Made by a program: the position numbers and the translations under genes. Shown here in pieces: positions 16,606-48,858 of a DNA stretch of 49,356 nucleotides; position 1 is the stretch's first letter; the number at the start of each line of letters is the position of its first letter. Source of the DNA: Bacillota bacterium (GTDB lineage: Bacteria; Bacillota; Sulfobacillia; Sulfobacillales; JAIMBI01); the NCBI GenBank assembly GCA_021795575.1, contig JAJYPH010000007.1, positions 1 to 49,356 of the forward strand, in the 5' to 3' direction. Below the pieces are notes generated by a model. It searched no databases, was not told the DNA's origin, and saw only the letters and a program-made list of their open reading frames with translations.

Positions 16606-16682
16606 TGGTCGGAGAGACAGGATTCGAACCTGCGACCTCCTGCTCCCGAAGCAGGCGCGCTACCAAGCTGCGCTACTCCCCG
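16606..16682 (-). tRNA. tRNA-Pro (anticodon CGG)
   Basis: Reverse complement CGGGGAGTAGCGCAGCTTGGTAGCGCGCCTGCTTCGGGAGCAGGAGGTCGCAGGTTCGAATCCTGTCTCTCCGACCA. Confidence 0.96.
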
Positions 16683-45181: not shown

Positions 45182-45727
45182 GCCAGCCTGGGGCCACCCG
45201 GCTGACTTCTATCCGAATCCGACGGGGCACCCGGGGCCGAGTGCCCCGTTCTTCCGGCCCGACGGCGACCACCGACAGGGGCAGTCCTGGCCACACAGCC
45301 TTAGACTCGATAGTGGGGGCCGGTGCTGTCACATTGTCTAGGGTGGCCGCAGTCGGCGATCGTCATCGCGGAGACCCGGCCGCCACCCCGAACGGTATCT
45401 GGCGGGCCCGTCCCAGCCGCCGGCCCTCCCTGACCGCATGGTGATCCATCGCTCGGAGGATCCCCCGTAAATGGCGAGCATGAAGTTCCTGCATCTATCT
45501 GTCCATTGGGGCTTGACATCTACCGATCAGGTCGGACGGTAACATCAGTACACAAAGTGCGCTCTCTATTAGCCATCTGGAAAAACGGCATTTGCGGTGT
45601 GCCGGCTCGCGAGCCTCGTCGGACGCGAGGGGGCGGAATCAGGAAAGTGGCTGCGTTCTTAAACGTTTGGCGTCGCCGACCCGTTGATGCGAGTGTGAGC
45701 GGGATCTGACCCGATGGGAGGGTGTCG

Positions 45728-46399
45728 ATGGCCAAGCCCGGTCGCGCCGACGTGGAACAGGAGGTGGGCGAGTGGGTGGGGGAGTACGGCGACCGCCTGG
45801 TGCAATACGCCTGGGCCTTGGTGCGAGACCGGGAGGAGGCCCAGGACGTGGCGCAGGAGGCATTTCGGCTGTTGTACCGCTGGCATGCGGGACCCGGCGC
45901 CGCCCGACCGATGACCCCGGCGCTCTTGTACCGCATCGCCCAGCGCGTGGCCCTCGACCGGCTTCGCCAGCGGCCGACGCGTCCCCTGCCTCGGGACTCG
46001 GCTGCGGAGCCTGCCCCGCTGTGGGACGCTCAAGGGGATCTCCGGCTCGATGTGGAGCTGGTGCTGGCCGAGATCGCCTGGTCAGACCGCGCGGCGCTTC
46101 GGCTGTTCTACTGTGATGGGTGGACGACGGAGGACATCGCTCGCCATCTAGGCGTGACGCGCGTGAACGTGCGGGGGCGGCTGTTCCGTGCGCGCCAGCG
46201 CTTCATGAAGATTTGGAGGGCCCGGGATGTGGAAGAGGATAGTGCGCCCGAAGGTGTGGGCCGGCGGGATGCCCGAGACGCGTGGGAAGGAGAGGGGCCT
46301 GATGCACCATCAGCGGAGCGACCGGTCGGGGACCGTGGGCGGAGACGACGCGTTGCGCGAAGGGGTCGCCGTGGGGCCGCGGCCGCGGTTGACCTTTGA
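45728..46399 (+). CDS. ECF-like RNA polymerase sigma factor
   Basis: QYAWALVRDREEAQDVAQEAFRLLYRW, ALLYRIAQRVALDRLRQR, DRAALRLFYCDGWTTEDIARHLGVTRVNVRGRLFRARQRF. Confidence 0.88.
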   Translation: MAKPGRADVEQEVGEWVGEYGDRLVQYAWALVRDREEAQDVAQEAFRLLYRWHAGPGAARPMTPALLYRIAQRVALDRLRQRPTRPLPRDSAAEPAPLWDAQGDLRLDVELVLAEIAWSDRAALRLFYCDGWTTEDIARHLGVTRVNVRGRLFRARQRFMKIWRARDVEEDSAPEGVGRRDARDAWEGEGPDAPSAERPVGDRGRRRRVARRGRRGAAAAVDL

Positions 46400-47702: not shown

Positions 47703-48035
47703 TCAGCGAACGGCGGTGGGGACGAAAAGGTCCACCAGCCCAATGATCAGGGCGGCAATGAGTGCCGCCACCACGGTCACATGCATGGTGGGAATCACAA
47801 ACTGCACCATCCAGATGACGACGGCAGACACCAAAAATCCCACGATGCCGCGGCCGTAGGGCGACACGCCGTGTCCAAACAGCGTTTCCAGCAGATATCC
47901 CACCAAGCTGATGACGATGGCGGCCAAGAGCGCGTCCCAAAACGTCAGGTGCGAAAATCCGGGCACCACATACCCCAACAGCATGAGCACCAGTGCCGCT
48001 ACGATGAAGCGAACGATGGCTCCGACCCACCCCAT
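47703..48035 (-). CDS. YvlD/phage-holin-IV-family membrane protein
   Basis: RBS AGGAGG; MGWVGAIVRFIVAALVLMLLGYVVPGFSHLTFWDALLAAIVISLVGYLLETLFGHGVSPYGRGIVGFLVSAVVIWMVQFVIP. Confidence 0.78.
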   Translation of the reverse strand: MGWVGAIVRFIVAALVLMLLGYVVPGFSHLTFWDALLAAIVISLVGYLLETLFGHGVSPYGRGIVGFLVSAVVIWMVQFVIPTMHVTVVAALIAALIIGLVDLFVPTAVR

Positions 48036-48262
48036 GTGCCCATCGCCTCCTTGATTGCGCTGAGTGCGCCTGGGCCCCCGCCGCATCGCTTCGGGCGGGC
48101 GCCGAGGCGCTCGGCCATAGTGTGGCGCGGTGCCGCGCTTTCATACGAGACGCGATCGTCTAGCGCGGCTGCCCGACGGGCACGCTATCTCGGGATGCCG
48201 TGCCGCATCGCCAAGGCGACTCCAGCTGACAACGTCGAAATCTGAGGAGGTGCACGGGCACC

Positions 48263-48550
48263 ATGGCCAATCAAGGAAACGGAGTCCCGCGGTCGTTCCA
48301 AGATCTGAAGGCGCGTGCTGCCGCCAAGATTCAGCGGGGCGACCAGGATGTCCACAGCGACATCATCGAGATGGGAGACGCCATGCTCCAGGCGGGCGTC
48401 GAGCCCCAGACACATCAGGACCACGTGGCCAAGTCGGTTTGGCAGTCCAGTCAGCCGCACGAAAAGCGCATGCTGGCGGATTTGGTGGCCCGCATGGCGA
48501 AGGCGGAAGCGGATGCGACCAACGCCGCGGACCCGGATGCCCTCGGCTAA
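48263..48550 (+). CDS. Small soluble protein, possibly DUF3243-like
   Basis: RBS GGAGGTG upstream; DIIEMGDAMLQAGVEPQTHQDHVAKSVWQSSQPHEKRMLADLVARMAKA. Confidence 0.5.
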   Translation: MANQGNGVPRSFQDLKARAAAKIQRGDQDVHSDIIEMGDAMLQAGVEPQTHQDHVAKSVWQSSQPHEKRMLADLVARMAKAEADATNAADPDALG

Positions 48551-48607: not shown

Positions 48608-48636
48608 TTGTGCGCGGGGCCCGAGCTGCTTATAAT
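48608..48636 (+). promoter_or_regulatory. Sigma-A-type promoter of the candidate ncRNA
   Basis: TTGTGC-17 bp-TATAAT (consensus -10). Confidence 0.7.
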
Positions 48637-48642
48637 GCGGTC

Positions 48643-48858
48643 AGGTCCTGCAGTGTGCGTGCGCGTTGTGGTATGTTTTGAGCCAACACCATGACATAGG
48701 GAACCGGATCCTTGAGCAGGTAGCCGGCACGCCCCCCCGAGAGGGACAGGGGACGTCGAAAATTTGCGGGAGGTTCCCACCTGCTTGCGAGCAGGTTCAA
48801 AACGCCAAAAGTCACACGGCATCGCGGGGCGTCGGCGGGGCCACACCCCGCCGTTTTT
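48643..48858 (+). ncRNA. Structured non-coding RNA, probably 6S RNA (ssrS-like)
   Basis: Own promoter and intrinsic terminator, no supported ORF; about 185-nt rod with closing pairing CCTGC/GCGGG, inner helix GTTTTGAGCC/GGTTCAAAAC, GGGAACC/GGTTCCC, side hairpin CCTGC-TTGCGA-GCAGG on 3' side, CCC-GAGA-GGG tip. Confidence 0.55.
48833..48858 (+). terminator. Rho-independent terminator of the candidate ncRNA
   Basis: CGGCGGGG-CCACA-CCCCGCCG-TTTTT. Confidence 0.85.

Follow-up and report, generated by a model that had tools for sequence, protein, structure and literature searches.

The 49,356-nucleotide stretch of DNA analysed here (the window) almost certainly carries, at 48642-48834 on the plus strand, the single 6S RNA (SsrS) of a Sulfobacillales bacterium, of the Bacillus subtilis 6S-1 type, which has its own housekeeping promoter and terminator and would act as an open-promoter mimic released by pRNA synthesis. 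6S RNA is a small RNA that blocks the main RNA polymerase in lean times in many bacteria. The region matched the Rfam covariance model RF00013 (6S/SsrS) over its full length (model positions 1-187) with a score of 72.8 bits, 26 bits above the curated gathering score of 46.4 bits, and an E-value, computed over the window, of 1.5e-12. No other family came near at this locus in the Rfam scan of the window; weak hits to ncS037 and isrA close to the RNA fell far under their own thresholds and were dismissed as chance matches. The RNA is 193 nt long and forms a rod in the range of about 180-200 nt, with a closing stem, a central bubble and an apical stem backed by covariation. It is present in one copy in the 3.7 Mb draft genome, which was searched for a second copy and yielded none. 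The initial annotation had proposed a 6S-like RNA, and this assignment is borne out by the full-length RF00013 match, by covariation over 40 order-level homologues and by the retention of promoter and terminator among them.

The genome is that of an uncultured bacterium placed in the Sulfobacillus order. In a class-level sample of 61 genomes, a 6S match was found in all 45 genomes of good quality and exceeded the threshold in 58 overall. Every matched genome had a single match except G053, a class-level relative in which two were found (L005 and L059, 103.2 and 71 bits). In another genome the sole match was partial and under the threshold at 28.5 bits (L058, G056:C1:122710-122811), so that it may be a 6S RNA that has diverged or a match that arose by chance. 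For the comparisons below, 40 order-level copies were oriented and aligned. Among the relatives in the order are Sulfobacillus thermotolerans, S. harzensis and S. benefaciens, along with many metagenome bins that carry just the label Bacillota.

The genomic neighborhood is conserved as well. Upstream of the RNA, and outside it, lies a gene for a DUF3243 protein (48263-48550, plus strand; PF11588), preceded by a gene for a holin-like membrane protein with four transmembrane segments (47703-48086, minus strand; PF04020). A search with the holin-like gene returned 22 loci, 20 of which had a 6S core on the opposite strand at a distance of 450-660 bases, with the DUF3243 gene located between the two and adjoining the RNA; the two loci lacking a 6S neighbor were the most distant of the 22. 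A cupin gene downstream was limited to three same-genus loci within this set. Elsewhere in the window, a gene for an ECF-type sigma factor with Sigma70_r2 and r4_2 matches lies some 2 kb upstream of the RNA, likewise on the plus strand (45722-46399), and the Rfam scan located three tRNA genes at 2049-2224 and 16609-16682 (minus strand).

The sigma-A-type promoter that had been read from the sequence, TTGTGC and TATAAT separated by 17 nt, is present at 48609-48636 (plus strand), with the -35 box at 48609-48614. It was missed by a generic promoter scan because TTGTGC agrees with TTGACA at just 3 of 6 positions. Conservation at the order level nevertheless extends over both elements, with a -10 box of TATAAT in 40/40 copies and a TTG-type -35 box at 17-18 nt in 40/40. 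The -35 box is mostly TTGCNN at 17 nt across the order and TTGTGN in the genus of the window, and the spacer measures 18 nt in one copy. Transcription can be inferred to start approximately 6-7 nt past the -10 box. At the other end, the intrinsic terminator, described earlier as CGGCGGGG-CCACA-CCCCGCCG-TTTTT, was found at 48833-48858 (plus strand). A terminator-like hairpin followed the RNA in all 40 order-level copies under a permissive scan that allowed one mismatch, asked for 4 T in 8 and was run without a shuffled control. The terminator sequences vary between lineages, so it is structure and position that are kept rather than the letters.

A lack of covariation in the rod and conserved coding on the minus strand had been named as observations that would speak against the proposed RNA; covariation proved to be present, as described below. 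A frame of 61 codons is indeed open at 48630-48815 on the minus strand, and two of the three closest relatives keep it open, which would be compatible with a small protein-coding gene. However, a Pfam search of this frame gave no match, the frame is broken in the third copy from the same genus as well as in other families, and conservation at the locus tracks RNA pairing rather than the minus-strand frame. The odds of a genuine minus-strand gene are accordingly negligible and the frame was set aside as incidental; judged from the sequence, the 6S RNA thus appears to form an independent transcription unit free of conserved coding.

The minimum-energy fold of 48640-48858 has an energy of -96 kcal/mol (z = -2.4), and 2 of 200 shuffled sequences folded equally well. 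Taken by itself, fold energy is only modestly better than chance and therefore does not settle the identity of the RNA; the Rfam score together with the conservation in relatives is decisive. The nested helices recognized in the initial annotation (CCTGC/GCGGG, GTTTTGAGCC/GGTTCAAAAC with one G-U pair, and GGGAACC/GGTTCCC) all occur in this fold, as does the small hairpin CCTGC-TTGCGA-GCAGG on the 3′ arm. The second of these helices corresponds to P2. Its 5′ strand GTTTTGAGCC (48675-48684, plus strand) is almost invariant in relatives and contributes to the predicted pRNA template; it is paired, with that single G-U, to the 3′ strand GGTTCAAAAC (48794-48803, plus strand). The hairpin of the 3′ central bubble spans 48781-48796 (plus strand), and its inner pair covaries in relatives (helix 9).

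Compensatory change along the rod was examined in the 40-row order-level alignment, one row of which (L038, shifted by 30 nt) lacks the 5′ end. Standard pairs of the window's fold were kept in 90.8% of the cells, and 20 pairs were changed on both sides, amounting to 132 cells. The covariation score of the rod was 0.184, as compared with 0.105 +/- 0.005 for shuffles and at most 0.059 for slid versions, the tested fold being somewhat favored over these slid controls by its derivation from one member of the alignment. Double changes were clear in the apical helix, reaching 16 sequences for one pair.

On the 5′ strand of the bubble, a putative pRNA template was placed at 48670-48687 (plus strand), with the B. 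subtilis 6S-1 RNA taken as an analogous case; the pRNA made from that RNA, 5′-GUUCGGUCAAAACUA, is initiated with GTP (PMC12005410). The B. subtilis-like template segment GAGCCAAC is conserved in the order-level copies and, taken with this analogy, leads to initiation being predicted opposite C48687, giving a pRNA of sequence 5′-GUUGGCUCAAAACAUACC. The predicted product begins 5′-GUUGGCUCAAAAC... (start GUUGGCUC), and 11 of its first 13 bases are identical to those of the B. subtilis 6S-1 pRNA in a sequence comparison.

From what is described for the family, the RNA may be expected to work as follows. The rod with its central bubble resembles an open promoter, and the housekeeping RNA polymerase holoenzyme is therefore expected to bind it and, once bound, would be kept off DNA promoters when nutrients are scarce. 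Upon a rise in NTP levels, the polymerase would use the 5′ side of the bubble as the template for a short pRNA beginning at C48687 (GUUGGCUCAAAAC...), and this copying would unwind P2 (48675-48684 with 48794-48803) and release the 6S RNA, P2 unwinding by pRNA synthesis having been described for B. subtilis (PMC8876501). A 6S-related RNA could also have a form of the polymerase other than this holoenzyme as its partner; in actinobacteria, for example, the polymerase core is bound by Ms1 RNA, whose structure is related to that of 6S RNA (PMC9130861). Such a role is very improbable here, given that the RF00013 match is full-length and well over the threshold and that the B. subtilis-like pRNA template is conserved.

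Assignment to the 6S-1 type is further consistent with the comparison with B. subtilis 6S-1 RNA (bsrA), which likewise forms a rod with a central bubble and has a small 3′-bubble hairpin already in the free RNA (PMC8876501), so that the hairpin CCTGC-TTGCGA-GCAGG fits this type. In both RNAs the pRNA template lies on the 5′ bubble strand and specifies a pRNA starting with G, of the form GUU..GUCAAAAC, which is a prediction for the present RNA (PMC12005410). Unlike B. subtilis, which has two 6S paralogues, the genome studied here has a single copy. The RNA from E. coli (ssrS) is captured by the same covariance model, RF00013, and is of similar length. It also shares a closing stem with CGGCA and a bubble closed by a GAGCC/GGTTC helix. 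In contrast, its 9-bp 3′-bubble hairpin arises only after pRNA synthesis (PMC8876501).

A second difference from B. subtilis concerns the 5′ side of the bubble, where in most Sulfobacillales relatives a hairpin is predicted to be about as stable as P2. For B. subtilis 6S-1 RNA, weak 5′-bubble pairing was predicted and was unconfirmed by probing (PMC8876501). Most order-level copies allow AUGUUUUG on the 5′ strand to pair with CAAAACAU, which follows after a few bases, and this places the predicted pRNA start in the loop. Forced folds of the 40 copies gave the hairpin state an energy within 0.1-0.2 kcal/mol of that of P2 for 20 copies, and one lower than that of P2 for 11 others. The corresponding hairpin of the window's copy, TATGTTTTG/CATGACATA (48672-48698, plus strand), is weak owing to one U-U mismatch; here the hairpin state was 2.9 kcal/mol worse than P2, which accounted for 98%. 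Its predicted stability is likewise reduced in the genus to which the window belongs. A double change preserving the hairpin pairing was seen in L018 and L019, both from one lineage. The hairpin arms are nearly unvarying within the order, permuting the distal arms among 17 class-level copies revealed no excess pairing (mean 5.33 vs 5.35), and slid controls equaled or beat the hairpin on double-change counts, so that the hairpin is to be regarded as a possibility and not as a finding; as a class-wide element it was rejected on the permutation and the slid controls. No strong B. subtilis-style collapse helix between distal 5′-bubble sequence and the 3′ strand of P2 was apparent by eye. In a tentative and rather unlikely model, Sulfobacillales 6S RNA would be bistable, P2 alternating with the 5′-bubble hairpin AUGUUUUG/CAAAACAU together with an extended 3′-bubble hairpin. 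Since the loop of the alternative state would hold the predicted pRNA start, refolding would control binding or release, a behavior undescribed for B. subtilis.

The 6S gene described here is an ordinary, intact and well-supported member of a well-known RNA family; it is detectable by any Rfam-based annotation and leaves knowledge of 6S RNA itself unchanged. The 6S RNA of the Sulfobacillus order seems to have been little discussed in the papers that were searched, and the present analysis adds a well-supported example for this little-studied order of acid-loving bacteria and puts forward a testable alternative fold specific to the lineage.
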